Source: Lentisphaera profundi (lineage in GTDB: Bacteria > Verrucomicrobiota > Lentisphaeria > Lentisphaerales > Lentisphaeraceae). Taken from it: a DNA stretch of 64,000 bases. Below, piece after piece: positions 17,857 to 48,538 of the stretch (position 1 is the stretch's first letter; each line of letters starts with the position of its first letter). Made by a program: the position numbers and the translations under genes. Under the pieces are notes generated by a model. That model was not told the origin of the DNA, did no database searches, and saw only the letters and a program-made list of their open reading frames with translations. Where the stretch lies: positions 62,001 to 126,000 of the forward strand of contig NZ_CP117812.1 of NCBI RefSeq assembly GCF_028728065.1, read 5' to 3'.

Positions 17857-20061
17857 ATGCATATTAGAATTTCTGAAGACAAGAAGCTTAGTAAACTTGA
17901 ATCAAATGGCTTAAGACCATTTCAGAATCAGGTTTACGAACATCGTGATGAGAAAATAATTGTCATCAATGCCATGACTGGCGCCGGTAAATCTATTTGC
18001 TCTCAAACGATCGCCTTATACAAGCTTGCTGAAGAACAGGTCAAGAGAGTCATTATCGCTGTTCCACAGAAATCCATAGGTGTGAACTTTCGTGAATACC
18101 CTGTCAAAGCCTTTGAGCATGCGGAAAAGTACCATGTATCCCTCGATCTTATTGATGGGACCGACACCACGTCTCGACTCAAACAATTTTTCAAATCGGG
18201 TACGGGGATATGTATCTGTACACATGCATCTTTAGTATCAGCACAAGTTAATGTAGATCAGTTTGATGACTGTTTACTCGTTATTGATGAAGCTCACCAT
18301 GTTTCTGCGTCAGAAGATTTAATGAATCACTTGGGTATATCCGTGAACAACTGTATGTCATCAAAAGGGCATACAGTATTGATGACGGCAACACCTTTTC
18401 GTAGTGATGCAGCCTCGATCGTGCCATCAGGCTTCGACTATGCTTCTAGCTTCTTCAGCATCACAGAATTCCTCTCTAGCTGTAAGCACCTTCGTGGAAT
18501 TAATACAGAATTTGACCTTCATGAATGCGATTCCTATTTGGATCGAATTAATGAAATAGATTTCAGTCGTAAAACGGCGATCTATATACCTGTAACGGGT
18601 TCCTATGAATCTCGTGACGTCTTCGATAAGAACTCGAAAGAAAACCATATTAGCTCCGTGATGGAAAAAATCGGAATCCCAAAAGGTAGAGACGAGTTTG
18701 GCTTTTATTTACTTGAACGGAAAGGACGCTTACTTAGAGTTGCGGACTTGGTGAATGATGAGGGTCCACAACAGGCTGCATTGGATGATACCAGAAAGAC
18801 AGGCGAATGTGATATTGTCCTCTCTATGAGTAAAGCGAAAGAAGGCTGGGATTATCCCTGTATTGAACAGGTGGTGATTATCGGTGCTCGTGGAAGTCTT
18901 TCTGATACCTTGCAAATGATCGGCCGTGGTGTTCGTGATTATGAAGCTAAAGAAACTTGCTATGTTCGCATTCTCGCTCAAATCGCTGATGTAGAAAGTG
19001 AAGAAGTTCGTGAGCAGACTGCTCGTTTTCTGAAGACGGTTTATTGCGCTCAGTTGCTAGAAGACATTATGATTCCAGCAAAGCTTTTTAACTTAAAGCG
19101 CATCCCCAAAGAAAATGGTGAACAGGAAAACATTCTCCCTGCAGTCAAAGAAGCAATAGAAGACCCTGCTATTAACGCACGTATCGGCGAAGCCATGAGA
19201 AACTTGCCGACCAGTATTCAATTGGGTAATAGCAGTGAAATCAAAGAAGCTATTTTGAATATCATCAGAACTGAACAAGCTCAATTTTCTGAAGATGAAG
19301 TAGCTCAGTTTGAACGTGCCTTGAAACTATGTCGCCACCTACGTAGTGAAGTCATAAAGAAAGATCTCAGTCTAGAATTTGCAGGCACGATCAATGTTGA
19401 TGATATAGACTTTGCTGTTATTGACGATGTTTCTCATGTAAGTCAGGCGGTAGCAGTATTGGCCAAAGGCATGGGGTTAGAAGGCTTTGAGTCTTTAAGA
19501 ACGTCATTAGCAAATGATTTTTACGAGACTTTAGAAGAGGCTTCAACAGCAGTTCAGAAGTTAGAGATTAAAGGACGAGTTGAATATCAAAAAGCAGGTC
19601 GATACAAAGAAGACCTAAGATTAACTGCCAATCCCGATAGAGTATATAAAAATCAATGGGACAAAGAAAATTGGACTTGGGAGAAATTCCTTGGGAACGA
19701 AGAGAAAGTAAATCCATACCCCACCCTTCATGAGGCACTATTAGCAGTGCAAAAACTAGGAATAAGGAGCTCTACTGAATATATAAATCGCTATAAAGAA
19801 GATCCTAAATTACCATCTTCACCCTGGAGATGTTATGATGGTCAATATAGAGATAAATTCAACTGGAATAAATTCCTTAATCAGACCGAGATATACCCTA
19901 CATTACAAGAGGCTCATACAGCAGTTAAAAAACTAGGTATTAAATCTTCTAGGGAATATATCAAAGATAAAATTTACAAAAAAGATACTAGATTACCTGC
20001 TGAGCCAAGGCTTAAATATAAATCACAGATCAATGGTCGTGGAACAAGTTTCTTGGTATGA
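17857..20061 (+). CDS. Superfamily II helicase with C-terminal integrase-type repeats (first part of a split gene)
   Basis: The N-terminal 480 or so residues form a ResIII/DEAD-like helicase: Walker A AMTGAGKS (39-46, Lys45), DEAH at 144-147, TATPF at 177-181 and motif VI QMIGRGVR at 353-360. From about residue 555 there are two complete and one partial copies of a 60-65-residue repeat of the form YPTLxEAxxAVQKLGIKS-xxY-RYKEDPRLPSNP-xxY-NQ-W-WNKFLG, which resembles the phage-integrase repeat unit (PF14882). The third copy breaks off at YKSQ. The next frame continues it as QWSWNKFLG, so the gene seems frameshifted near 20030. GGGAG precedes ATG 17857. Probable role: an ATP-driven DNA translocase of a restriction or defence protein (inference). 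Confidence 0.82.
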   Translation: MHIRISEDKKLSKLESNGLRPFQNQVYEHRDEKIIVINAMTGAGKSICSQTIALYKLAEEQVKRVIIAVPQKSIGVNFREYPVKAFEHAEKYHVSLDLIDGTDTTSRLKQFFKSGTGICICTHASLVSAQVNVDQFDDCLLVIDEAHHVSASEDLMNHLGISVNNCMSSKGHTVLMTATPFRSDAASIVPSGFDYASSFFSITEFLSSCKHLRGINTEFDLHECDSYLDRINEIDFSRKTAIYIPVTGSYESRDVFDKNSKENHISSVMEKIGIPKGRDEFGFYLLERKGRLLRVADLVNDEGPQQAALDDTRKTGECDIVLSMSKAKEGWDYPCIEQVVIIGARGSLSDTLQMIGRGVRDYEAKETCYVRILAQIADVESEEVREQTARFLKTVYCAQLLEDIMIPAKLFNLKRIPKENGEQENILPAVKEAIEDPAINARIGEAMRNLPTSIQLGNSSEIKEAILNIIRTEQAQFSEDEVAQFERALKLCRHLRSEVIKKDLSLEFAGTINVDDIDFAVIDDVSHVSQAVAVLAKGMGLEGFESLRTSLANDFYETLEEASTAVQKLEIKGRVEYQKAGRYKEDLRLTANPDRVYKNQWDKENWTWEKFLGNEEKVNPYPTLHEALLAVQKLGIRSSTEYINRYKEDPKLPSSPWRCYDGQYRDKFNWNKFLNQTEIYPTLQEAHTAVKKLGIKSSREYIKDKIYKKDTRLPAEPRLKYKSQINGRGTSFLV

Positions 20062-21683
20062 GTGACTTCTACCCTACTTTAAAAGAAGCTAGTAAGGCAA
20101 CTCAAGAGTTAAGAATTAAAAGCGGCAGTCAATATAAAAGAGGTCGCTATAAAGAGGACCCTAGACTTTGTTACAGCCTCGATAGTGTTTATAAAGATCA
20201 ATATATAGGGGAGTGGGACTGGAATAGATTTTTGGGGCTAGAAAAAAGAGTAGAGCCATACGCTACCTTAAAAGAAGCTAGTCAGGCTGCGCAGAGTATA
20301 AATATAAAGTCTGGTAATGAGTATACTAAAGAGAAGCGATATAAGGAGGACCCTTATCTTCCAAGTAAACCGATGGATAAATATAAAAATCAGTATACAG
20401 GTATATGGGACTGGAATAGATTTTTGGGGCTAGAAAAAAGCGTAGAACCCTACGCTACTATAATAGAAGCTAGTCAGGCTGCACAGAGATTAGGAATTAA
20501 AGGTATTTCTGAATATACAAAAAAGCACCGTTATAGAGAAGATCCTAGACTAAGATATAACCCTGATAAAACATATCAAAATGAGTGGAATGAAGGGTGC
20601 TGGTCTTGGAAGAAATTCCTAGGAGGTGATGAATTATATGCTACGCTGAAGGAAGCTTCTTTAGCAGCGAAAAATCTTGAATTAAATAAACGAGGTGACT
20701 ATCAAAACAATGGTGGGTACAAATTAGATCCAAAATTAACTCCGAACCCTGATAAAATATATAAAAATGAGTGGGTGAAAGAGAATTGGTCTTGGGAGAA
20801 ATATCTAGGGTTAGAGGAAAAGAGTAGACACTATTTAACGTTAAAGGAAGCTAGTTTTGCTAGTGTAGAGCTAGGTATTAAAGGTAGGCATGACTACCAA
20901 ATAAAAAAAATATATAAAGAAGATAAAAAACTTCCTTTCAATCCTGAGAAAGCCTATCAAGGACAATATGATGGTAAATTCAGCTGGAACAGGTTTCTCA
21001 AAAATGGGAAAAATAAATTATATTCTTCAATAAAAGAGGCTAGTCAAGCTGTACAGAAGTTAGGAATGATGAGCTCTACTGAATATGTAAAACGATACAA
21101 AGAAGACTCAAGGTTACCATCAAATCCAGATAAAACATATTGCATACAGTGGGATAAAGAAAATTGGACATGGCCAAAATTTCTTGGGAAAACAATCTCT
21201 AATACTTATGGCACTATAAAAGAAGCTAGTATTAGTACTCAAAGGTTAAATATCAAATCTGGGAATGAGTATACAAAAGAAAAGCGCTATAAAGAAGATC
21301 CTCAACTTCCAAGTAATCCGATCAAGGCATATAAAAATCAGTATAACACTAAATGGAATTGGCCACATTTCCTTGGGATAGACGAAAAACTTCAAGCAAT
21401 TGAGGGGAGAGAAAAGATCACTCTCAAAGAACACATCAAGAAAGAACGCAATGCAAGTTTAGTTAAGAAGATTAAAGAAAAGCGTTTGGCCGAGACGGGC
21501 AAATTAGCCTGTGATGATTGTGCTCATTCTTTTGATGAGCAAGGTTTTGATTATATAGAAGCACACCATGATAGTAAGATGCACTCAGAGCTATCCCCTG
21601 AAGGTGAATTAGTATCAGAAGATGACTTTCGTTTACTCTGCCCAAACTGTCATGTCATAGCCCACAAAAAAATGGAATCATAA
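20058..21683 (+). CDS. Integrase-type repeat protein with C-terminal HNH nuclease (second part of a split gene)
   Basis: This frame holds seven more copies of the 60-65-residue repeat found at the end of the helicase, each beginning YxTLKEAS and ending W-W-x-FLG, followed by a basic linker and an HNH nuclease domain at about 450-541: CDDC, then IEAHH, then LLCPNCHVIAH. The paired CxxC motifs bind a structural zinc and the HH is the likely catalytic site. ATG 20058 overlaps the helicase stop (ATGA), so coupled translation would be possible, but the repeat consensus reads upstream of this ATG in the same frame, which argues for one ancestral protein: helicase, ten repeats, HNH. Confidence 0.82.
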   Translation: MSDFYPTLKEASKATQELRIKSGSQYKRGRYKEDPRLCYSLDSVYKDQYIGEWDWNRFLGLEKRVEPYATLKEASQAAQSINIKSGNEYTKEKRYKEDPYLPSKPMDKYKNQYTGIWDWNRFLGLEKSVEPYATIIEASQAAQRLGIKGISEYTKKHRYREDPRLRYNPDKTYQNEWNEGCWSWKKFLGGDELYATLKEASLAAKNLELNKRGDYQNNGGYKLDPKLTPNPDKIYKNEWVKENWSWEKYLGLEEKSRHYLTLKEASFASVELGIKGRHDYQIKKIYKEDKKLPFNPEKAYQGQYDGKFSWNRFLKNGKNKLYSSIKEASQAVQKLGMMSSTEYVKRYKEDSRLPSNPDKTYCIQWDKENWTWPKFLGKTISNTYGTIKEASISTQRLNIKSGNEYTKEKRYKEDPQLPSNPIKAYKNQYNTKWNWPHFLGIDEKLQAIEGREKITLKEHIKKERNASLVKKIKEKRLAETGKLACDDCAHSFDEQGFDYIEAHHDSKMHSELSPEGELVSEDDFRLLCPNCHVIAHKKMES

Positions 21684-23367: not shown

Positions 23368-23559
23368 TTAGGGAGCAATAGCTTCTACGTGGCCGTCGCC
23401 GAAGAGGATGTTGAGTTTTTCGCCGTTTTTGTGAATTTGGGTATCGCCAAATTCGTCGCCATCCATGGCAATGCGGGAAGCGGGGCTTTCGATATCTGCG
23501 AATAAAGCGCCATTGATAATGGCGGGAGTGATATATACATTTTCATGAAGACGAACCAT
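23368..23559 (-). pseudogene. Decayed pseudopilin copy with internal deletion
   Basis: This 63-codon frame encodes the last 56 or so residues of a pseudopilin (VYITPAIINGALFADIESPASRIAMDGDEFG to FGDGHVEAIAP) and is about 85-90% identical in DNA to the end of the intact gene at 27334-27822. Its apparent N terminus, MVRLHEN, is not coding in the intact copy: the same DNA (ATACATTTTTATGAAGGCGAGCCATTA) lies upstream of the intact gene's start. About 340 bases between these two parts have been lost, with a short TATA-type match at the junction. Homology to the other copy stops at CCATTA, right where the 41-bp-type repeat begins. Confidence 0.88.
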
Positions 23560-29565: not shown

Positions 29566-29737
29566 GTTAATCTCCGTTGATTGTTTGGAGATTAATAACA
29601 AAAGATAGTGAAGATAATCTGCATTAATCCTTAAGCTATTTATGCTAAGTACTTTATAAAAATATTAATATTAAGGAATGATTAATAATTAGCCATAAGA
29701 TGCGGATTAAGTTACATTAAAGTGTGCGGATAAATGA

Positions 29738-31108
29738 TCATTTTTTAAAATCAGCAGGTTTAATATCGTATTTTTTCATTTTGTCATAGAGAGTTTTACG
29801 TGGAACATCTAAGGAGGCACAAGTATTCACAACAGAACCACCTTGCGCAGTTAATTCATTTTCGATAAGGTGTTTCTCATAGAGGCCTACTTTATCGGCA
29901 ATGCTGGAGGTTTCAGGACTAGAAAAACTACTTATATACGTGCTGTCAGTGTTATTTTGCTCTACTTGTAGGTCTTCGCTAAGCATACCTGTTATCACAT
30001 AGCGTTCAGCCGTATTACGTAATTCTCTAACGTTACCAGGCCAATCATAAGCAATTAGCTTATTGAGAATATCTTGAGATACGTCGATAAGCTCTCGTTG
30101 ATACTGGGTGCAAAATTGAAAGAGGAAATGTTTGAAAAGTAGAGGGATATCTTCTGGACGATCTTTGAGCGAGGGGATTTTTATAGGAATGACATTGAGG
30201 CGATAATATAAATCTTCACGAAATCCCCCTTTGTCAACGACCTGTTTGAGTGGGACTTGTGAAGCAGCAATAACCCTGACATCGACCGAAATAAGTTTAT
30301 TACTTCCGACTTTTTCAATCACTCGTTCTTCAAGAAAACGCAAAAGCTTTACTTGCATGCTCATGGGCATTGAATTGACTTCGTCTAAAAAAAGAGTTCC
30401 ACCATGACACTCTTCAAATTTTCCTTTACGTGAAGATACCGCCCCAGTAAAGGCCCCCGCTTCGTGACCAAAAAGCTCTGAATCCATAAGGTTTTCAGGG
30501 ATAGCACCACAATTTATAGCGGTGAATTTGTTGTCTTTACGTGCAGATGAATCATGAATATAATTAGATATAACTTCCTTCCCTGCACCCGTTTCTCCAA
30601 TAAGCATAATATTAGCATCTGAGAGAGCAATAGTCTTTAAGGTGTCTTTTAAGCGTAGCATAGAAGATGCTTGAGCAATAAATTCTTTAGCGCCAGATTT
30701 TTTCTTAATTTGTAGACGTAGAGTTTTATTTTCGATACTTAATTGGCGTTTCTCTAAAGCTCTATTGGCAGAGCTTATGAGATATTCTTTAGAGAGGGGT
30801 TTTTCCAGGAAATCATAAGCACCTGAACGTAGCGCTTTAAGAACATTTTCAACTTCACCATTACCGGTAAGAACAATGACCGGAATCCCCTCATCTATTT
30901 TTTTTACTCTATCCAGAACTTCAAAGCCATCGATGAGCGGCATATGGAGGTCGGTAACAATAATTCCTTGCCAACCAGCTTGGATCTCAGCTAGCATTTC
31001 GAGGGGTTCAGAAAAAGTTTTAATTTTAAAAGTGGTTTTGCGCATGATTAATTTCATCGCATGTAAAAAGTTTTTATCGTCGTCTACAAAATAGATTTCC
31101 TTACTCAC
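29738..31108 (-). CDS. Sigma-54-dependent response regulator (NtrC family; PrsR-like)
   Basis: The 456-residue protein has a receiver domain (1-120, phosphoacceptor Asp53 in TDLHMP), an AAA+ activator domain with GETGAGKE, the sigma-54 contact loop GAFTGA and GGTLFLDEV, and a C-terminal Fis-type helix-turn-helix (NTCASLDVPRKTLYDKMKK). It belongs to the NtrC/DctD group and would activate RpoN promoters. Its place in an exosortase/EPS locus recalls PrsR, the regulator of PEP-CTERM systems. GTG 31108 is taken as start because TAGGAG lies about eight bases upstream; an in-frame GTG at 31135 lacks one. It is divergent from its likely kinase. Confidence 0.92.
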   Translation of the reverse strand: MSKEIYFVDDDKNFLHAMKLIMRKTTFKIKTFSEPLEMLAEIQAGWQGIIVTDLHMPLIDGFEVLDRVKKIDEGIPVIVLTGNGEVENVLKALRSGAYDFLEKPLSKEYLISSANRALEKRQLSIENKTLRLQIKKKSGAKEFIAQASSMLRLKDTLKTIALSDANIMLIGETGAGKEVISNYIHDSSARKDNKFTAINCGAIPENLMDSELFGHEAGAFTGAVSSRKGKFEECHGGTLFLDEVNSMPMSMQVKLLRFLEERVIEKVGSNKLISVDVRVIAASQVPLKQVVDKGGFREDLYYRLNVIPIKIPSLKDRPEDIPLLFKHFLFQFCTQYQRELIDVSQDILNKLIAYDWPGNVRELRNTAERYVITGMLSEDLQVEQNNTDSTYISSFSSPETSSIADKVGLYEKHLIENELTAQGGSVVNTCASLDVPRKTLYDKMKKYDIKPADFKK

Positions 31109-31405
31109 GTGTGTACTCCTACTTGATTGGCTCACATTATAGTAAAAGCTTCACCTTATTGAAACAATTATTTATGCGAAAAATCACACAAAAAAAGAGG
31201 CGGAATGATATATTTATGAAGTTTTAGATGATTTTATCGAGTTTTATTTATGTTTTAGAGAAATGAAGTGCCTTATTGAATAATCAATTAGCTGAAAAAT
31301 TTATTGAGGAATTATATTTCTTTACTTTGAGTAAAACTATTAATTTTTATTTATTAAAAATAGTCGAGTACAAAAGAACGTTAATGTGAGGGGAGAGTCT
31401 AGGTA

Positions 31406-33301
31406 ATGAAAATAAGTTTTTATACGACCATGCTAGTATTATCCTGCATGTGTGTGGGTTTCACGGCCGTGGGCATTGTTTTTTTTAGAGGGGAGTTAAT
31501 CCATGTTCAGCAGCAGAAGCTGCAGTTACTCCAACAAGACAAAGTTCAAACAGATGAAGCGTTAATCTTTATTAATCAATGGAAGCGCACTCTAGATTTA
31601 TATTTAATGAAACATGAGCCCTATTTACACAAGAGTTTAAAGGAGCAGGTGAATGCCATTAAATATATAAACCAGCAGTATGTGGGAAGCGATAATATTC
31701 GTTTAGTAAGTGCACGAATTGAACAGGTCATGCACCTATGCTCCAAAAAAATGAGTACTGATGCAGAATGGAAAATTTTAAGTATAGCAAGTGGAAAATT
31801 AACACTAGATCTAGAAGGAAGTGTTCAAGCTTTGCAAAAAAAATTACGGACTCAGATAAATGAAAAAAGGCTTTATATTAGTTCCTTACAGAAACAGTTT
31901 TCACTCACTGTTTATGTATGCCCCACACTCTTTATCGCATTTTCATTAATTATGCTAAAGTGGGCCAATCGAACAGTAGTACAACCGATTAAAGACCTCA
32001 CTGAATTGGCACGCAAAGGAGAGATTAGTCAAGAAAAGTTTTCCTATAAAAAACCAGTAGAAGTCGATCACTTAGTGGATAGCTTAAACGAGTATATACG
32101 CGAACTCATTGAGGTGAAAGATCAAGCTTGGCAAGAAATGCGACAAAACGAGTATGCTAATGCTCGAATGAGTAATATTATGGAAACGGCTGCGGATGCC
32201 ATTATTTGTACAAGTTCTTCGGGTGATATTATTCAAATGAACGCATCATTTCGACGTTTAACGTTCTTGACGGATGATTATCCAGGCGAATTGCGTTGTG
32301 AATTTTTTTTACCGAATTTTAGATTGTCAGATTATAGCGAAGATATAATGGAAACATTTGTAAGTGTTGAACAAACTGTCCTCAAAAACACCAATGGTGA
32401 AGATATACCTATTGAGCTTTCAGTAAGTCATTTTACATACGAAGAAGTGATGTATTTCACCTTAGTTATCAGAGATATACGCGAACGAGAACGGATGCAG
32501 CAACAAATTCTTCAAGCCCAAAAAATGGAATCTGTGGGGACTTTGGCTGCTGGTATTGCGCATGAGATTAATACCCCTACTCAGTACATTCGAAATTATT
32601 GTATTTTCTTGCAAGATGCCTTCAATGATTTAGCGAAATATGTTAAAATGACTCAAGAACATCCCACAAGTCAAGTACTGAAAAAATTAGAAGAAGACAT
32701 CGAGCTCGATTTTTTAATGGAGGAAATACCGAAAGCGCTTAAAGGTAGTGAAGAGGGTTTAGGGAAAGTCAGTGTCATTGTCAAATCCATGAAGGTCATG
32801 TCTCATCCTTCTAAAAGTGAAAAAGTCAGTTACGATATAAATACTTTATTAAAAGAAGCTGTTATTCTTTCTAGAAATCAGTGGAAACAATTTGCAGAAA
32901 TCAAATATATTTTAGACGAAAATATTCATGAGGTCATGTGTTATCCAGGCTTACTTTCACAGACCTTTATTAATATTATTGTGAATGCAGCTCAAGCAAT
33001 CGAAGAGCAAATTAAAACTCAAACTTTTGAAACATTGGGTGTGATTACAATTAGAACGACCATGAAGAAGCGAAACGTCATGATTAAAATTTCGGATACA
33101 GGAATTGGGGTTAAAGATAGTATTCGGACGAAAATTTTCGATCCCTTTTTCACAACTAAAGAAGTAGGAGTGGGAACCGGTCAGGGCTTGGCGTTGTCTC
33201 ATGACCTTATAGTTGGTAAACATGGAGGAAGTATAAGTTTTGACTCAAATCCGGGACTTGGTTGTAGCTTTATAATCCTACTGCCTTATACACTGTCTTA
33301 G
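31406..33301 (+). CDS. PAS-domain sensor histidine kinase
   Basis: The 631-residue protein has a membrane segment at 6-28, an extracytoplasmic helical sensor (about 30-170), a second membrane segment (about 172-192), a HAMP-like region, a PAS domain (about 250-355), and the kinase core: H-box GIAHEINTPTQY with His386, N-box INIIVNAAQAIEE, G1 ISDTGIGV and G2 GTGQGLALS. It is divergent from the NtrC-type regulator across 297 bases and is the obvious partner. The signal sensed is unknown. Its end overlaps the convergent ATPase gene by four bases. Confidence 0.92.
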   Translation: MKISFYTTMLVLSCMCVGFTAVGIVFFRGELIHVQQQKLQLLQQDKVQTDEALIFINQWKRTLDLYLMKHEPYLHKSLKEQVNAIKYINQQYVGSDNIRLVSARIEQVMHLCSKKMSTDAEWKILSIASGKLTLDLEGSVQALQKKLRTQINEKRLYISSLQKQFSLTVYVCPTLFIAFSLIMLKWANRTVVQPIKDLTELARKGEISQEKFSYKKPVEVDHLVDSLNEYIRELIEVKDQAWQEMRQNEYANARMSNIMETAADAIICTSSSGDIIQMNASFRRLTFLTDDYPGELRCEFFLPNFRLSDYSEDIMETFVSVEQTVLKNTNGEDIPIELSVSHFTYEEVMYFTLVIRDIRERERMQQQILQAQKMESVGTLAAGIAHEINTPTQYIRNYCIFLQDAFNDLAKYVKMTQEHPTSQVLKKLEEDIELDFLMEEIPKALKGSEEGLGKVSVIVKSMKVMSHPSKSEKVSYDINTLLKEAVILSRNQWKQFAEIKYILDENIHEVMCYPGLLSQTFINIIVNAAQAIEEQIKTQTFETLGVITIRTTMKKRNVMIKISDTGIGVKDSIRTKIFDPFFTTKEVGVGTGQGLALSHDLIVGKHGGSISFDSNPGLGCSFIILLPYTLS

Positions 33302-34131
33302 AAACTAGGCATTGAGAGGCAAAGTTTTTGTTGTTGAATATCGTTAATTACGAGTGAAATGGTATCATGGGAGAAATGCACAGCATCTTGCTCATCAACA
33401 TGTTCAAATGCAATCTTACAAACTTTATTTATTTCTCTTGGACATCCTAAGGAAAAACCATAAATCATGTCTACAGATTCTTGATCGATACTGACTTCCT
33501 TATTTATTTTATTCATCCTAAAGCGAATATAGGATTCGATTTGATCAGCCTCTAGGTAAGGTAGGAAATACATTAAACCGACACGTTGAGCTACTGTAGG
33601 ACATTGCATGAGAGTTTGATTGAATTCTGGTTGGCCACATAGAATGAGCGATACACCAGATGAATTTTGAGTGCTATTAGTAAGACATTTAAGGTTCCTA
33701 AGGCAGTCAACTGAAATCATTTGGCACTCATCAAGCATGATGATCAGGTGACGTCCTGTAGCAATGATTGTCTCATGCATGATTTTTTCGAATTCACTCA
33801 AAAGCAGATAACGATCCATCTTAAGTTCAATAGTCTTATGCACGCCGCTTAACTGAAAAATAATGGTATCTAAAATGGCCTCAAAGGAAATATTTGAACT
33901 GGGGATATAGACTAATTTATAAGAATAATCAATCATTTGCCCAAGGGTCTTACAGAGTAAGGTTTTCCCGGAACCGATTTTTCCCGTAATGACACCAATA
34001 TTAATACCTCGATCAGTACAGATATACTGCAGGCGCGAAATAGCTTCGGCATGTTGGGGGCTTTCAAAAAAACAAGAGGGCGTAGGGTCGGTTTCGAAAG
34101 CGCAATTTTTTTTGTGCATAAATGGTTTCAT
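33298..34131 (-). CDS. ExeA/GspA-like AAA ATPase of exosortase EPS loci
   Basis: A 277-residue ATPase of the ExeA/TniB-like group, matching in size and pattern the ATPase regularly found next to exosortases (TIGR03015-like). Walker A is GKIGSGKT at 50-57, Walker B LIIMLDE with Asp134 and Glu135, and SLILCGQPEF and AQRVGLMYFLPYLE are family landmarks. The role is thought to be in assembly or control of EPS export; it is not established. Only 67 bases separate it from the O-antigen-ligase-like gene upstream, so it likely ends that minus-strand operon. Confidence 0.85.
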   Translation of the reverse strand: MKPFMHKKNCAFETDPTPSCFFESPQHAEAISRLQYICTDRGINIGVITGKIGSGKTLLCKTLGQMIDYSYKLVYIPSSNISFEAILDTIIFQLSGVHKTIELKMDRYLLLSEFEKIMHETIIATGRHLIIMLDECQMISVDCLRNLKCLTNSTQNSSGVSLILCGQPEFNQTLMQCPTVAQRVGLMYFLPYLEADQIESYIRFRMNKINKEVSIDQESVDMIYGFSLGCPREINKVCKIAFEHVDEQDAVHFSHDTISLVINDIQQQKLCLSMPSF

Positions 34132-34198: not shown

Positions 34199-35602
34199 TT
34201 AAGTAGTTGTAGCAGTAGTACTTAAAGGTTCTTTTTTAATGTGATGAATGGCAACGATGATTGAGCATATTATGATCATTAAAAAATATTGTGGACTTTG
34301 GCGATAGCCTAATTGAAGCATGCTTTGAAAATGGAGTACTAAACTTGCACCAAGACATGCAGTACTCACTGTATAGAGGTATTTATCTTTACGAGTTTTT
34401 ATTAGATTTAAAAATGCCATCCAATAAAGTCTTATCCATATAATGGCAAAAGCGATTAAACCAGGGTAACCCAATTCACCTAGGTTAATGAACCAAAGAT
34501 TATGGGGAGGAGTTCCGGGAGGCAGTTGTTCATCGACTTGTCGTGCATATTTTAACCATGACCATGCTGAAAAATTTCCTATACCTACACCAAAAACATT
34601 TTCTGCGGCCATGAGTTTAGCTTTTTTATTGTATTTCCCCCGATAAGTCATGTCTTCGCTCGCATCCTGTTTGTTGAAGAAACGATTGATAAGGGTGTCG
34701 GAAGATATAAATAAAATGATCGCTGTAAAGAAGAGGCCTATAGAGAGCAGGATAATATTTTTTAGGCTAAATATTCGGCGACAAAGAAAGAATAAACAGC
34801 AGGCTATACCAAGGGCCATTGCCACTAGTCCACCACGAGAAACCGTTAAAATGACACACAGTCCACAGCACGCGACAAGAAATGAATAAACAAAAGATGA
34901 TAACCACGACTTAGCATAAAGTATTAAAGGGAAAAATAGAGTGCCTAGCATGGCCATGTAAGTGGAAAACGAATTGGCATGACCCAAATTTGTTTTAATG
35001 CGGTGGAATCCAAAAATATAGCGATCCCTGAGAGCTAAAAGGGTGAGATAAATAACAGTTAATAGCAAACCCATATAAATAATTTTGATATACTCTGGGT
35101 TCTGGAGGTAGTTAACTAATATCCAAAAGAGAAAGAGACCTCGAAGAATTTTACTTATCTCAAAAAGTGGATAAAGCCATAATTCGAATTGAGCATAAGG
35201 AGGTGGATATATAGTATATTTATTAGTGACTACGGGATCTGGTACAGGTAAATTTTGACAATTAAGAGCCCAGGAAATTAGCGCAATTAAAAGATAAAAT
35301 AGGTAGGGACAAGTAAGTGCGGGAAGCAATATACGTTTATTTTCCTTCCAATTTATAAGTAAATTTCCTGCAAGAGTTAGAGCACAAATATCAATTAAAC
35401 TTAGTTCAAAGCCACGAGTCGAAGCTCGATAGAATTCACGAGAAAAGAAATTTATACCAAATTTATCAGGTTCACAACTCGACCATATCAGGAGCATGAA
35501 GTATAGCTTTGGTATAAGTTTGTGGACTTGACAAAGAAAGACTCCAATCGGAACTCCTGCGAAAAGAATAAAGAAGAAAATTATGTATTTATATTCCGAC
35601 AA
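34199..35602 (-). CDS. O-antigen ligase/polymerase-like membrane protein
   Basis: A 467-residue protein with about eleven hydrophobic segments and the Wzy_C-type periplasmic loop ending in PPHNLWFINLGELGYPGL, the mark of O-antigen ligases and EPS polymerases (PF04932). In this locus it most likely joins repeat units into the exopolysaccharide. The start is a TTG at 35602, preceded by AAGAGAG; the first ATG would remove the first membrane segment. It lies 11 bases after the GT4 gene. Confidence 0.82.
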   Translation of the reverse strand: MSEYKYIIFFFILFAGVPIGVFLCQVHKLIPKLYFMLLIWSSCEPDKFGINFFSREFYRASTRGFELSLIDICALTLAGNLLINWKENKRILLPALTCPYLFYLLIALISWALNCQNLPVPDPVVTNKYTIYPPPYAQFELWLYPLFEISKILRGLFLFWILVNYLQNPEYIKIIYMGLLLTVIYLTLLALRDRYIFGFHRIKTNLGHANSFSTYMAMLGTLFFPLILYAKSWLSSFVYSFLVACCGLCVILTVSRGGLVAMALGIACCLFFLCRRIFSLKNIILLSIGLFFTAIILFISSDTLINRFFNKQDASEDMTYRGKYNKKAKLMAAENVFGVGIGNFSAWSWLKYARQVDEQLPPGTPPHNLWFINLGELGYPGLIAFAIIWIRLYWMAFLNLIKTRKDKYLYTVSTACLGASLVLHFQSMLQLGYRQSPQYFLMIIICSIIVAIHHIKKEPLSTTATTT

Positions 35603-35613
35603 TTAGGACTCTC

Positions 35614-36837
35614 TTAAACCGCTAGGTTTTGATGGCTCACAAAGCTTTCTGCTTTGTCTAGTAAATGGTTTACGAGTCGCTCGATATAATTATCGAAATT
35701 GTATTTTGTATTTACAAATTCCCGACCAGATGCGCCTAATTTCCTCACAAGCTTTTTGTTATTAAGCATGAGCTCAATTTTTTCGGCCATTTTCTCAATA
35801 TTCATCCAGGGAATTAAGTATCCACTTTGATCATTAATGAGCCAATCTTTAATTCCACCTGCATCGAAACCAATGACAGGTAAACCATGGCGAAGAAATT
35901 CTAAGCCAACAGTGGCAATAGGTTCAGGCCAAACTGATGGTACAGCACCAAAAAGAGCTGAACCATAAATAGCCGATAATTCTTCTTGGCTCACAAAGCC
36001 CTTAAAGATGATTTTATCTTCCATTTTTAAGCTACGTACAAGTTCTTGACAGTATTGCTTATGAGAGCCGCTACCAAATACATAGAGTTTAAAATTTGTT
36101 TTCACAAGAGCAAGAGCATTGATGAGGCAATCGAGGCCTTTTCCACGAATAATTTGAGTAGCAAAGATAATGATATTTTCATCACTATATGAATTTATGG
36201 GAAGATCATTTTTGGGGAGAGGTACAGGAGGGAAAATCTTAATTTTACTTTTGTGGAAGCCCTGTGTTATTAATTCTTGTTTCATATACTCACTGACGAC
36301 AAATACTTCATCGAAGGATTTATTAATTTTGATTTGTTGCATTTGTTTGCTGTAGCTGCGCCAGACAAGTCGACTAGATTCTCCTTGTCTTTCTCTATTC
36401 AGAGAAGCGCCACAGGGAATCAGACAGGCTATACCGGCTTTTTTAGTGCAAATTTTTCTACTAATTGGATTATATTTATAACTTCTCATACAGTACATAT
36501 CGTGATCGTGCTGCATACGTATAAGAGGGCAACCAAAATCACGAAAAGCCTGTAGCATACCAATATTCATACATTTATGTACGTAGATCATTTGAGGTTG
36601 GATTTGTTGGAGTATTTTCCAAGTTTCACTATAGGCACGATGAGCTTTTTCTTCGAAATCATACTGGATCTTTTCTTTGATAACACTTTCAAGCTCTTGG
36701 CTATCTTTACCGGTATCTTCGTTATAGAGGAAGCTGACTGCCATTTTTTTTGCGATGTAGGGGAGGGTTACATATATATGTTGTTCAGCACCTGAATAAC
36801 GGCCGAATCGTTCATTGACTAAAAGTATAGATTTCAT
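35614..36837 (-). CDS. Glycosyltransferase family 4 protein
   Basis: The 407-residue GT-B enzyme has the donor-binding C-terminal half with IIFATQIIRGKGLDCLINAL, IFKGFVSQEELSAIYGSALFGAVPSVWPEPIATVGLEFLRHGLPVIGFDAGG, in which the EPxxxxxxE motif is clear. It would transfer a sugar from a nucleotide donor to the lipid-linked repeat. AGGAG precedes ATG 36837. It follows the GT2 gene after 20 bases. Confidence 0.88.
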   Translation of the reverse strand: MKSILLVNERFGRYSGAEQHIYVTLPYIAKKMAVSFLYNEDTGKDSQELESVIKEKIQYDFEEKAHRAYSETWKILQQIQPQMIYVHKCMNIGMLQAFRDFGCPLIRMQHDHDMYCMRSYKYNPISRKICTKKAGIACLIPCGASLNRERQGESSRLVWRSYSKQMQQIKINKSFDEVFVVSEYMKQELITQGFHKSKIKIFPPVPLPKNDLPINSYSDENIIIFATQIIRGKGLDCLINALALVKTNFKLYVFGSGSHKQYCQELVRSLKMEDKIIFKGFVSQEELSAIYGSALFGAVPSVWPEPIATVGLEFLRHGLPVIGFDAGGIKDWLINDQSGYLIPWMNIEKMAEKIELMLNNKKLVRKLGASGREFVNTKYNFDNYIERLVNHLLDKAESFVSHQNLAV

Positions 36838-36857: not shown

Positions 36858-37964
36858 TTAGAGGTGAAAGCGCGTTTCACGAAGTTTCATAGCATTTAAA
36901 TCTTGAGCAATTTTTTTACTTTTGGTATCGGACCAAAGTGATTGTAAATGACTATTTTTAATTTTTTGATTACTCACGAAAACCACAGCAATATCGACCA
37001 ACCATGCACAAATCACGGGGATGATCATTTTTAATTTTCCCTTAAAAGATAATCGTGTGAGTCTTTTAAATCGAACTGATAGGGCACCAGAGTAAATGTA
37101 CCATTTTTTGCCTTGGGCAAAATAAATAAGCATCTCTTCTTTGAGCCATTCAGGATTTTCTAAGGCACGTTTTTTTACAGCTTGAATGGCATTATCATTA
37201 ATGAGATCATTTTTAATGATTTCTTTAAAAATTCTCCATAAAGAAAAACCTACAGTTTGGCGCACTTGATTATTGAAGTAATCTTTCACACCAGTGTAAG
37301 CTTCAAAAATATGACTGATGTGGCGCAGGCTAATGATTTTTGAATCATCTACTGAGTGCTTCAAGCCACCTGTACACGCCATGAATTTAATATAGGTGTC
37401 ATCGATCAAAACTTCTGGTGGGATATAAATTTGTTTGAGGAAATCTGCGCGTGCACAGTAAAGTTGACCACAAAGTTGTGATGTCCCTTTTTGGGTTATT
37501 TTTGAAAAGGCTAGAGAAGTAAAATTACGTAAACCCTTGTGCGCTTTAAGACTGATATCTTTGATGGGTAGGTCACTAGAAATTAAGGCTTCAGAGTTAC
37601 GTTCGAGTGCGTCAATTAAAGTTGAAAAATTATGGTTTTGTTGAATAATGATATCGCCATCCATACAGATGATATAGTCGTAATCAGGATCGGAGTAGAG
37701 ATGGATGAGATCATTCCACGCAGCAATTTTTCCAGGCTCTTCTTTGCTTACAACTCTATAGGTAAAATTCAAATGAAGTCGTTTAAACTCCCGCAGCAGG
37801 AATTCAGCAATTGCCGCACTGTTATCGCTACAAGCATTCGCAACTATGATCATTTCAATTTTATCTTGTGTATGATTAAAAATATCTTGTGTGAAAACAG
37901 TTTTTAGTGTATCAGCTATGATATCTTCTTCATTATGAATGAGCATGCCAATAAGTATTTTCAT
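36858..37964 (-). CDS. Glycosyltransferase family 2 protein
   Basis: The 368-residue protein has the GT-A nucleotide-binding start MKILIGMLIHNEEDIIADTL, CSDNSAAIAEF, and the metal-binding MDGDI (DxD) motif, followed by a hydrophobic region near the C terminus (MIIPVICAWLVDIAVVFV). It is first in a minus-strand operon of GT2, GT4, polymerase and ATPase genes. AGGGAAG precedes ATG 37964, and a sigma-54-like promoter lies 30-46 bases upstream. Confidence 0.85.
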   Translation of the reverse strand: MKILIGMLIHNEEDIIADTLKTVFTQDIFNHTQDKIEMIIVANACSDNSAAIAEFLLREFKRLHLNFTYRVVSKEEPGKIAAWNDLIHLYSDPDYDYIICMDGDIIIQQNHNFSTLIDALERNSEALISSDLPIKDISLKAHKGLRNFTSLAFSKITQKGTSQLCGQLYCARADFLKQIYIPPEVLIDDTYIKFMACTGGLKHSVDDSKIISLRHISHIFEAYTGVKDYFNNQVRQTVGFSLWRIFKEIIKNDLINDNAIQAVKKRALENPEWLKEEMLIYFAQGKKWYIYSGALSVRFKRLTRLSFKGKLKMIIPVICAWLVDIAVVFVSNQKIKNSHLQSLWSDTKSKKIAQDLNAMKLRETRFHL

Positions 37965-37993
37965 AAAACTTCCCTTTTTTTGATTTAATCAAA

Positions 37994-38010
37994 TGCTTAT
38001 ATGATGCCAA
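37994..38010 (-). promoter_or_regulatory. Sigma-54-like -24/-12 promoter of the GT2-GT4-polymerase operon
   Basis: On the minus strand TTGGCATCATATAAGCA has the invariant GG and GC at the correct 11-base offset; the -24 half is a full match (TTGGCA) and the -12 half is AAGCA rather than TTGCA. Transcription would start near 37983, giving a leader of about 19 bases that contains the ribosome site AGGGAAG. A 30-nt palindrome lies 78 bases further upstream. The NtrC-type regulator of this locus is the natural activator. Confidence 0.5.
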
Positions 38011-38087
38011 GGATAAAAGTATTTATGTAAATAGCTTGTTTGTATATATTTATGAATATTTATGAATATTAATGAGCGAGTTTCTTG

Positions 38088-38117
38088 TAATCATGTAACA
38101 AAATTGTTACATGATTA
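38088..38117. promoter_or_regulatory. Perfect 30-nt palindrome, candidate enhancer site
   Basis: Two 14-base arms (TAATCATGTAACAA and its exact complement) flank a central AA. It lies about 78 bases upstream of the sigma-54-like promoter at 37994-38010, where NtrC-family activators usually bind. No T-run follows on either side, which argues against a terminator for the exosortase gene ending at 38139, though a terminator role is not excluded. Confidence 0.6.
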
Positions 38118-38138
38118 TGTGAATTTCCATCTGGATGT

Positions 38139-39761
38139 TTAGTCTGTATTGACTTGGATTTCTGGAAGGATTGGAATAAAATCTTTTTCTAGCTGGGTAC
38201 AGTTATCAGACCAAGTAATATAAAGTAACCAAGGAAGCTGTTTCCCTTGAAGTTGAGCCATCGTATTATGAGCGATAAATTCACTGTAAGTAGCGCATGT
38301 GAAGTCATCGCTTTGGAACCAATAGATGAATTCACGACTTAATCCTTCTTGCTTAAGTTTAAGTTTAGTGACGTTTAAATCTGAAAATTTCGTATTACTA
38401 TACTGAATTTGTTGGCGTGAACTTACCTCCCAACCGATACCAAATTGGCAGTATTCAGGAGTGTGTATATTTTTAGAATCACCTTCGGATGAAATAATCA
38501 TGAGTCCGGCACTTTCGGAACCTTTGGTATAGATTCTTTTTATGAGTTCCTGGTCATTTACTTCTAGGTCAAAACCTTCCCAATTATTTAATATGTAAGG
38601 GTAGTAAAAGGATTGAGTCACTAATGGCACAGGAGATTTACGTGAGCTGTAGAGTTGAATTCCAAAAAGAAAACAAGTAGCAACAAGAATGTACTTGTAG
38701 CAAATAAATGGTAAGGGGCGTGTACATGTATATTTAATGGTTTTAGTTCTACTCAATACAAATGAACTGAGTAGAACTGCGATGATAAATTTACTAATAA
38801 GGACATGATCTAGACTTAAGTTAAACATTTCCATTACTTGTTCATTAGTTTTTGGGTAAGCCATGAAAATTATGAACAGTAAAGGAGTCTTTTTTAAACT
38901 ATTTTGAAAACCGTATTCAATAGTATTAAAGCTATGAAGACTGACTAAAAAACAAAAGCCTAGAATATAATTATTCATGCTGAATAATTGAATAAGACTG
39001 GTGATGGCAAGAATAAAGATCATCATTAGAATGCCACTAAGATAGTCACTATGATTTTTCGAGCTTTTAAAAGCCAAAAAGGCATAAATACCAATGCCCC
39101 AGATGAAAAAAAGAAATGAAGCGGTGTCATTTTGGTTATAAATGGTTCCCTTCCAATCGCGTATGCAAGCAGTGAAAAATGGAAGCATAACTAGGCATGT
39201 CATTAGTATGGCAGGGTACAATAAGTTTATTTTAAATGTAGCTTGCTTAAGCGATATCATGAGTTCTAAAATTTTTGTAAGCATATATATATTGATCGCA
39301 AAAAAAACTAGCCCAATAATGGTATGAAGTAGGGTGTCTGCATGAATAATAGAACCGCTTAGATAACTGAGTCCAACTAAGGCAGAGACGCGGATGCTAT
39401 TAACGAATACGGCCAGAGGAATACTAAGCATGATAAATATAAACTTACTCAATCCCGTTAATTTTTTACTCGCAATAGCCAGTATACATGAAGAGATTAA
39501 ACTAATCTTTATACTCTTTGATCCATTGCATGCGGGAATGATATCGAATGACATATTTCCCACTTCAAGAATCGTAAATTGACGTTCGATATCCATTCCC
39601 AAATAAGAGAGGAAATATTCAGAAAAAATAGCAGAAATAAGCCTTAACTGAGTTCCCCATAGTTGATCAAATACTTCTCCAAAATATAAAACAATAAGGA
39701 GGCAACTAGAGATAAGTACAGTCTTATGCACTAATGATTTTGTGAACAATGTCTGAGCCAT
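38139..39761 (-). CDS. Exosortase with fused EpsI domain
   Basis: The 540-residue membrane protein holds the exosortase triad: Cys78 in IPACNGSKSIK, Arg124 in NSIRVSALVG and His146 in LLHTIIGLVFF. Exosortases are transpeptidases that cleave PEP-CTERM tails and attach the protein to another molecule in the envelope. The soluble C-terminal 150 residues match the EpsI/DUF3485 partner (GLMIISSEG, IHTPEYCQFGIGWEV, FIYWFQSDD), fused here in one chain. Its gene overlaps the upstream TPR gene by 31 bases, and the PEP-CTERM-like substrate is first in the same operon. The exosortase subtype was not determined. Confidence 0.9.
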   Translation of the reverse strand: MAQTLFTKSLVHKTVLISSCLLIVLYFGEVFDQLWGTQLRLISAIFSEYFLSYLGMDIERQFTILEVGNMSFDIIPACNGSKSIKISLISSCILAIASKKLTGLSKFIFIMLSIPLAVFVNSIRVSALVGLSYLSGSIIHADTLLHTIIGLVFFAINIYMLTKILELMISLKQATFKINLLYPAILMTCLVMLPFFTACIRDWKGTIYNQNDTASFLFFIWGIGIYAFLAFKSSKNHSDYLSGILMMIFILAITSLIQLFSMNNYILGFCFLVSLHSFNTIEYGFQNSLKKTPLLFIIFMAYPKTNEQVMEMFNLSLDHVLISKFIIAVLLSSFVLSRTKTIKYTCTRPLPFICYKYILVATCFLFGIQLYSSRKSPVPLVTQSFYYPYILNNWEGFDLEVNDQELIKRIYTKGSESAGLMIISSEGDSKNIHTPEYCQFGIGWEVSSRQQIQYSNTKFSDLNVTKLKLKQEGLSREFIYWFQSDDFTCATYSEFIAHNTMAQLQGKQLPWLLYITWSDNCTQLEKDFIPILPEIQVNTD

Positions 39762-42487: not shown

Positions 42488-43369
42488 TTAACCTACAAAC
42501 ACGTTTGATTTTTCTTGCTGTAATTTTTTGTAGAGAATAAATCCTGCAATAATAATCAGTAAATAAAACTCTGGCTCAGGTGCCCCTGCTGGAGCGATGG
42601 GGACCTTTGAAAAAGATCCTGCTTCAAGGAAAACAGCGGAATCCCACAAGGTATCACCTGCGTCAGCAATGGCTAATTTTAGATGATACGTTTCCCCTGC
42701 ATTCAATCCGGTAAGTTTGGCGGTAAAAGTATTAGTGAAACCATCGAAAGAAAAATCAAAATCTTGATTGTTATTTGGATCATGATGAGAGTCATTATTA
42801 TTAAAAAAATCTTCATTAGTATTATGATTGATACTATTAATTGCGACAATATCATCTTCGCCGGGAACTAGAGCATAGTTCTCACCATTGATAAAAAAAC
42901 CAAAAGTATCATTATAAGAACTGCCCACCCACTCAGTGTACTCCTCTGATGCAAAGGCATAATTAAAGTAGGCACTATCTCCTTGAGTGGTGAAATCCAT
43001 TTCAATACTGGTGGCATCGTATGTGCTATAACCCGGGATAAGGGAATTTAAATCACTATCACCGCCGGTATTTAATCTGCCTGATGTACGACTGGATGAA
43101 TTAACAGAGTCAATAGTATTGACATAGCCAGTCGAAAGAACAATACCGCTGTCCATGCCTAAACCAGCATCCAGACCATTGCTGAAGTAGCCTAGAGCTC
43201 GACTGTCTCCATTGTAAGATATATTAGAAACCTGAACTCCTGGATCGATGTAGGCTTGTTCATCTATAAGTGAGTTTACGAGATTGTCGATGTTATCAAA
43301 GCTATCTATGATGATTTCAGCTTGTAGTTGAATGTTGCTCAGTAGTAATAGGGTGATGAATGTTTTCAT
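42488..43369 (-). CDS. PEP-CTERM-like choice-of-anchor L domain protein (exosortase substrate)
   Basis: After a Sec signal peptide (MKTFITLLLLSNIQLQAE) this 293-residue protein has a choice-of-anchor L domain, with GIVLSTGYVNTID, ATSIEMDFTTQGDSAYFNYAFASEEYTEWVGSSYNDTFGFFING. It ends with a sorting tail: GAPEPEFYLLIIIAGFILYKK, that is a PEP motif, a hydrophobic stretch and a basic end, plus an unusually long last segment (LQQEKSNVFVG). It is the first gene of the operon that also holds the exosortase, so it is the likely dedicated substrate. AAGGT lies seven bases before ATG 43369. Confidence 0.87.
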   Translation of the reverse strand: MKTFITLLLLSNIQLQAEIIIDSFDNIDNLVNSLIDEQAYIDPGVQVSNISYNGDSRALGYFSNGLDAGLGMDSGIVLSTGYVNTIDSVNSSSRTSGRLNTGGDSDLNSLIPGYSTYDATSIEMDFTTQGDSAYFNYAFASEEYTEWVGSSYNDTFGFFINGENYALVPGEDDIVAINSINHNTNEDFFNNNDSHHDPNNNQDFDFSFDGFTNTFTAKLTGLNAGETYHLKLAIADAGDTLWDSAVFLEAGSFSKVPIAPAGAPEPEFYLLIIIAGFILYKKLQQEKSNVFVG

Positions 43370-43395
43370 TTTGGTTTACCTTACGTTTTTTAGAT

Positions 43396-43412
43396 TGCAA
43401 GTATAAAGCAAT
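43396..43412 (-). promoter_or_regulatory. Sigma-54-like promoter of the PEP-CTERM/TPR/exosortase operon
   Basis: On the minus strand ATTGCTTTATACTTGCA has a good -12 half (TTGCA) and, 11 bases away, TTGC in place of TGGC. Transcription would begin near 43384 and the 15-base leader would contain AAGGT. The missing first G of the -24 element lowers confidence. Confidence 0.35.
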
Positions 43413-43704
43413 TAGTGATCCTTTTTTATCCGACATAGTCATAAGTATTTTATAATAAGTATTTAATATTTTATTTATTATTTTAATATTACATATTTGT
43501 GCGTTGTTTGTTGTATATATTGTTACTTTTATCACCCTTTATCATTAGTCGAAAATAGCTATATTTGACTATTATTGTGATGGGGTAGAAAAGGTGTATT
43601 ACAATGGGTAAATATGGTGACAAGATTTATTTTGACACAAAACTAGCAGTGAAATAAAGTTTTAAATTCTTGTTTATTAAGTCTTTATGATTTTATGATG
43701 AGTC

Positions 43705-43721
43705 TATGCCTATTGTTTGCT
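43705..43721 (+). promoter_or_regulatory. Sigma-54-like promoter of the rightward EPS operon
   Basis: TATGCCTATTGTTTGCT has a -12 half TTGCT and, at the correct 11-base offset, ATGC in place of TGGC, the same deviation as the divergent site at 43396-43412. The predicted start near 43732 leaves a leader of about 22 bases that includes TGGAG, the ribosome site of the first gene. Confidence 0.33.
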
Positions 43722-43753
43722 GATACTTCGCCAAACAATCTGGAGTAAAAGAT

Positions 43754-48362: not shown

Positions 48363-48538
48363 TACGCATAAGTCCTTTGGTGTAACAAATAAGTGTATCA
48401 CTGTGTGAAAAATGATAAACCAATGGGGATTAATGGTTTTTAATATTCTTAAGTCCTTTGTTTCAAGTATATTATGGTTTAATCACCATCTCTAGCATGA
48501 GCTATGATAACATTCTTTGAAAAATAAGGAATGAAACA

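Follow-up and report, generated by a model that had tools for sequence, protein, structure and literature searches.

What a long inverted repeat does in the 174-bp gap (37965-38138) between an exosortase gene and a glycosyltransferase gene is the question raised by this locus of Lentisphaera profundi. The original prediction, made on the window (the whole 64,000-nucleotide stretch of DNA analysed here), held that an enhancer, a promoter and a regulator fit together at this place. Our analysis suggests, with a probability of roughly 70%, that the gap is a sigma-54 enhancer-promoter unit, probably under the control of the response regulator encoded in the locus; it would probably serve as an ordinary, regulator-controlled switch of polysaccharide genes for exopolysaccharide production. 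From the original prediction, the promoter box and the repeat, reduced to a 16-bp dyad core, stand, as both are conserved in three species, and a second dyad can be added to them; the 14-bp arms of the repeat are not conserved, and the regulator is a binder that we infer.

The gap and its exopolysaccharide locus

The locus is of the exosortase/PEP-CTERM exopolysaccharide type and spans ~28.9-58.5 kb. Its first part encodes a sugar transferase, an NtrC-family response regulator, a divergent PAS histidine kinase, an XrtA-type ATPase-like protein and a Wzy-like protein; then follow two glycosyltransferases, an exosortase-EpsI fusion, a TPR protein and a choice-of-anchor-L protein with a PEP-CTERM-like end; and the plus-strand genes encode a glycosyltransferase, a phosphodiesterase-like protein, a flippase, WecG, a Wzc-like protein, two Wza-like proteins, a pyruvyl transferase and two further glycosyltransferases. 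The first gene behind the promoter encodes a family 2 glycosyltransferase (36858-37964, minus strand; Pfam PF00535); a group 1 glycosyltransferase (35614-36837, minus strand; PF00534 and PF13439) and a Wzy/O-antigen-ligase-like membrane protein (34199-35602, minus strand; PF04932) would follow in the same presumed transcript. On the other side of the gap, the gene of the exosortase-EpsI-type (DUF3485) fusion (38139-39761, minus strand; PF09721 and PF11984) ends 21 nt before the repeat. The exosortase lacks approximately the first 40% of its profile and retains the C-x-G, N-x-x-R and H-x-x-x-G motifs (CNG, NSIR and HTIIG). Elsewhere in the window (17857-21683), a helicase gene and an adjoining second gene encode several "integrase repeat unit" (INT_rpt) domains.

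The inverted repeat (38088-38117, assigned to neither strand), the proposed activator site (enhancer), was defined by direct reading, a repeat search and its uniqueness in the genome. It reads TAATCATGTAACAA-AA-TTGTTACATGATTA: the 14-bp arms are perfect, as had been said of a "perfect 30-nt palindrome", but the 2-nt AA centre makes it strictly an inverted repeat rather than a full palindrome. Among the perfect short-loop inverted repeats of the window it has the greatest length, and it lies in an intergenic stretch with a G+C content of 25%. Among 60 simulated windows of the same dinucleotide make-up, an arm of 14 occurred in none and an arm of 13 in one; inverted repeats with an arm of at least 14 and a loop of 0-10 are expected 0.005 times per window and 0.4 times in the whole genome, and because of this genome-wide expectation the length of the repeat alone is suggestive, not decisive. 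The genome scan that the original prediction had called for found a single copy in the 5,457,903-base (5.46-Mb) genome with up to three mismatches allowed, and we dropped a repeat-element reading because of this single-copy state.

A sigma-54-like −24/−12 promoter element (37994-38010, minus strand; TTGGCATCATATAAGCA, GG-N10-GC) lies downstream of the repeat at an edge-to-edge distance of 77 nt, in agreement with the predicted distance of about 78 bases. The minus-strand −24/−12 match itself, TTGGCATCATATAAGC at 38010-37995, has the GG-N10-GC form of a sigma-54 promoter, and the site begins 46 nt before the ATG of the family 2 glycosyltransferase gene. It had been called the best sigma-54-like site in the window, which it is not: by an approximate sigma-54 matrix it ranks 18th among 127,968 positions of the window and second among the non-coding ones, and the higher-scoring non-coding match, at 23512 (minus strand), falls between convergent genes. 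Each of the three Lentisphaera genomes that we compared carries a single copy of rpoN (TIGR02395; 372.6 bits in the present genome). Between the dyad and the promoter (38044-38075), the AT-rich direct repeat ATTTATGAAT occurs twice with a 10-bp period and could bend DNA and aid looping.

Conservation of the promoter box and the dyad core

The footprint sample comprised this genome and two sister species, Lentisphaera marina IMCC11369 (G001; NZ_JAQZZL010000002.1), which carries the same glycosyltransferase locus, and a species designated G002; the gene order of the locus is identical in both sisters. The promoter box before the orthologous gene reads TTGGCATCATATAAGC here, GTGGCATAGGATAAGT in L. 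marina and TTGGCATAAGACCCGC in G002 (GG-N10-GC, GG-N10-GT and GG-N10-GC, respectively), stands at a nearly equal distance from the ATG in all three species, and is preserved though the glycosyltransferase proteins share only 59-61% identity with their sister orthologues. The −12 position of L. marina, GT and not GC, speaks against the sigma-54 reading.

Alignment with the upstream regions of L. marina and G002 revealed a dyad core, GTAAC-N6-GTTAC, inside the repeat (38095-38110, minus strand): GTAAC-AATTTT-GTTAC here, GTAAC-CATATA-GTGAA in L. marina, and GTCAC-CAAAAA-GTGAA in G002. The spacing from core to TGGCA is 85 bp here, 75 bp in L. marina and 76 bp in G002; the core thus lies upstream at looping distance (75-85 bp) in three of three species, and the 10-bp shift corresponds to one helical turn. 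Because only three genomes are compared, the number of independent changes behind this conservation is small.

The full-length repeat with its 14-bp arms occurs in this species only and is absent from L. marina and G002. Compared with L. marina and G002, this species has GTTAC in place of GTGAA as its right half-site, an exact inverted copy of the left flank comes next, and its spacer exceeds theirs by ~10 bp. A templated (quasi-palindrome) lengthening of the right arm would be consistent with these differences, which are read from three sequences and in an AT-rich spacer that aligns poorly; the extra arm length seen here is probably a later, local extension that is dispensable for the site. 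On this comparison, the 16-bp core tells more than the long palindrome around it, conspicuous as that is.

Genome-wide, pairing the dyad with a TGCCA 60-90 bp away gives two to three matches per Lentisphaera genome, one of which, in each species, is the site described here. The dyad pattern GTMACN(W)5GTKW, scanned genome-wide in the three genomes by patterns and not by a matrix, is not enriched over a reversed control; any regulon is therefore small and mostly within the locus. We dropped a broad regulon, given this lack of enrichment and the lack of a convincing sigma-54 partner at the extra matches that we inspected. Among more distant relatives, the locus of the regulator homologue of genome G005 (63% identical) has no clear dyad, and the glycosyltransferases of G031 and G040 (31-34% identical) are not preceded by a comparable gap.

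Further dyads, the regulator and alternative readings

A search matrix built from the three first-site cores alone was applied to the remaining intergenic regions of the locus, and identified a second conserved dyad, GTAAC-N6-GTGTA (48382-48397, plus strand), upstream of the WecG/Wzc/Wza operon. The three species carry it at the same place of region 48363-48538, as GTAAC-AAATAA-GTGTA, GTCAC-TAAATA-GTGAT and GTAAC-TAAAAA-GTGAA; this dyad, upstream of 48539, is the first, second and first best non-self match in stretches of 64, 40 and 40 kb, respectively; and when the columns of the matrix were permuted 3000 times, two of the resulting matrices reached its score in any of five regions, as did none of 1000 shuffled sequence sets. 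A degenerate sigma-54-like element, TAGCATGAGCTATGAT (48493-48508, plus strand), follows, with boxes that align in the three species. The distance from the dyad to the −24-like box (TAGCATG, GTGCACG and TTGCACG in the three species, each with a poor −12) is 95 bp here and 96 bp in both sisters, about one turn beyond that of the first site. The reading of enhancer plus sigma-54 promoter is well supported because the box and the dyad are conserved, their spacing is compatible with helical phase, and the dyad recurs at a second exopolysaccharide operon.

A possible third, weaker dyad, TGTTTC-N6-GTGAAG (31149-31166, minus strand; TGTGTC-N6-GTGAAG in both sisters), is located where the regulator gene would have its promoter, and could tentatively be taken as an autoregulatory site. 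The TGTKTC-N6-GTGAAG score was reached in 11 of 1500 permutations, but in 264 of 1500 with a symmetrised matrix, and we hold the site tentative because it overlaps a possible −35 element and may be conserved as part of that element. The surrounding stretch (31136-31200, minus strand) is a strongly conserved block (TTTTTCGCATAAAAAATTGTGTCAATTAAGTGAAG in the sisters) before the response regulator gene, perhaps a promoter with an autoregulatory site. A TGG-N10-TTCTAG-like box, TGGCATTGCGTATTCTAG in this genome (34164-34181, minus strand), precedes the XrtA-type ATPase gene (33298-34131) and is conserved in the three species; it resembles a −24 element whose −12 carries TC rather than GC, and is possibly another, atypical sigma-54 promoter.

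The choice-of-anchor-L protein (42488-43369, minus strand; NF038133), judged by its PEP-CTERM-like C-terminus (APEPE-hydrophobic-KK), is a likely substrate of the exosortase of the locus. We sought the dyad at its gene and found no clear site there, and PEP-CTERM genes, with one marginal TIGR02595 match (16.2 bits vs. a cut-off of 16 bits), were dropped as targets. An AAYCCGCAC-like block recurs in three species in the divergent region before this gene (43370-43753) and before the sugar transferase gene (29602-29737), possibly as a shared site of another regulator.

The GAFTGA-type activator that the locus had been said to encode is present: the likeliest binder of the dyad is an NtrC-family response regulator (29738-31135, minus strand) with a receiver domain, an AAA+ domain containing GAFTGA, and a Fis-type HTH (PF00072, PF00158 and PF02954), so that rpoN and a GAFTGA activator occur together in the genome. 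The regulator is 79-82% identical in the sisters, where it occupies the same locus, and its HTH is nearly unchanged across the three species. Its best NCBIfam match is TIGR02915 (PrsR), at 384.5 bits and under the cut-off of 502.6, followed by AtoC at 382.2. Divergent from it lies the gene of a PAS-domain sensor histidine kinase (31406-33301, plus strand; PF02518 and PAS), which is best matched by AtoS-like kinases (193.8) and reaches just 58 bits vs. a cut-off of 300 for PrsK (TIGR02916). As the regulator falls below its cut-off and the kinase is nearer to AtoS than to PrsK, we call the regulator PrsR-like in role and place, not PrsR.

The regulator, used as a query against the genome, gave 20 matches, of which many fall on its sigma-54 activator (interaction) domain, and other sigma-54 activators are therefore encoded in the genome. 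One of these might bind the dyad as the enhancer of the sigma-54 promoter while the locus regulator acts elsewhere, and the link between binder and site does draw on neighbourhood and conservation only; however, both conserved sites lie inside the regulator's own locus, with the tentative third at its own promoter, and the regulator's HTH is conserved along with the sites, which makes another binder unlikely in our view.

The repeat could instead act as RNA, namely as a 3′-end hairpin (terminator or RNase block) of the exosortase transcript, 21 nt past the stop codon, where a stem of 13 bp with a 4-nt loop is predicted (−18.6 kcal/mol, z −5.4). This explanation is weakened, and in our estimate quite improbable, because the U-tract is absent (the stem is followed by CAAGAAACTC, and a terminator scan makes no call) and because the sisters cannot form the long hairpin yet retain the GTMAC-N6-GTKA letters, which is the reverse of the pattern expected if an RNA stem were under selection. 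Slightly less probable still is that the dyad is an operator unrelated to sigma-54 and the sigma-54-like match is incidental: 5-6-5 inverted repeats are a common operator form of repressors and CRP/TetR-type regulators, but a position 75-96 bp before the promoter box, in ~10-bp steps at two loci in three species, is typical of enhancers and far for most repressors, and the gap holds just one sigma-70-like site, a poor one.

Proposed mechanism and relation to known systems

Taking the gap as a sigma-54 enhancer-promoter unit, we propose that sigma-54 RNA polymerase would form a closed complex on the −24/−12 element (37994-38010); that the dyad KTMAC-N6-GTKAM (38095-38110) would be bound by an activator of the NtrC family, for which the response regulator of the locus, encoded at a distance of 7 kb and phosphorylated upon a presumed signal, is the most likely candidate; that the bound activator would loop across approximately eight turns of AT-rich DNA; and that its GAFTGA loop and ATPase would open the promoter. 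The glycosyltransferases and the Wzy-like gene behind the promoter would be switched on as a result, and the second dyad, upstream of the WecG/Wzc/Wza operon, would allow the export half to be switched on together with them.

In sigma-54 enhancers of the NtrC/AtoC type, a dyad that accommodates a dimer with Fis-type HTHs lies some 70-150 bp before a −24/−12 promoter. The unit described here shares this layout, and AtoC is the next-best family match of its regulator; it differs in its dyad letters (KTMAC-N6-GTKAM) and in having a locus-specific regulator.

A closer parallel is the cis-element that Haft et al. (2006) described upstream of PEP-CTERM genes, in Proteobacteria only and with PrsR as the predicted binder: a 17-nt motif ending in TTTACA is followed, after 63 nt on average (range 32-92), by a sigma-54 motif (PMC1569441). 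Both systems belong to an exosortase/exopolysaccharide locus with an NtrC-family regulator and a kinase nearby, and both place an activator motif of ~17 nt, a putative one here, before GG-N10-GC, at a gap of 32-92 there and 75-85 here; the 3′ end of motif 1 reads TTTACA there, and that of the dyad site here GTTACA. In contrast, the targets there are mainly PEP-CTERM genes of Proteobacteria, whereas here they are glycosyltransferase and export operons of Lentisphaerota, with a regulator under the TIGR02915 cut-off and a kinase that is not PrsK. By analogy, the unit would work like the system of Haft et al.; its membership in the PrsK/PrsR system is not established. The pepA gene of Aquincola tertiaricarbonis, in a PEP-CTERM locus, has an RpoN1-dependent, mapped −24/−12 promoter with a predicted enhancer upstream, in a genome that encodes PrsK/PrsR (PMC9850573); the layout is alike, whereas there the promoter was mapped experimentally and the target is PEP-CTERM, and here the element is predicted and the target is a glycosyltransferase.

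A more far-reaching and tentative proposal, which we consider possible but doubtful as a whole, is that Lentisphaera possess a small sigma-54 regulon confined to this locus, where a single cognate two-component system would co-switch assembly and export of an exosortase-linked exopolysaccharide through a dyad common to both. PrsR-like enhancer logic would thereby reach past Proteobacteria and apply to glycosyltransferase operons rather than PEP-CTERM genes, and the long palindrome would be a recent templated extension of a half-site that added approximately one helical turn.

If our reading of the gap is true, the coupling of exopolysaccharide/exosortase loci with sigma-54 and a two-component system encoded nearby would be broader than Proteobacteria and reach Lentisphaerota, and the unit would offer an exact site and target on which to test how Lentisphaera switches on its exopolymer.
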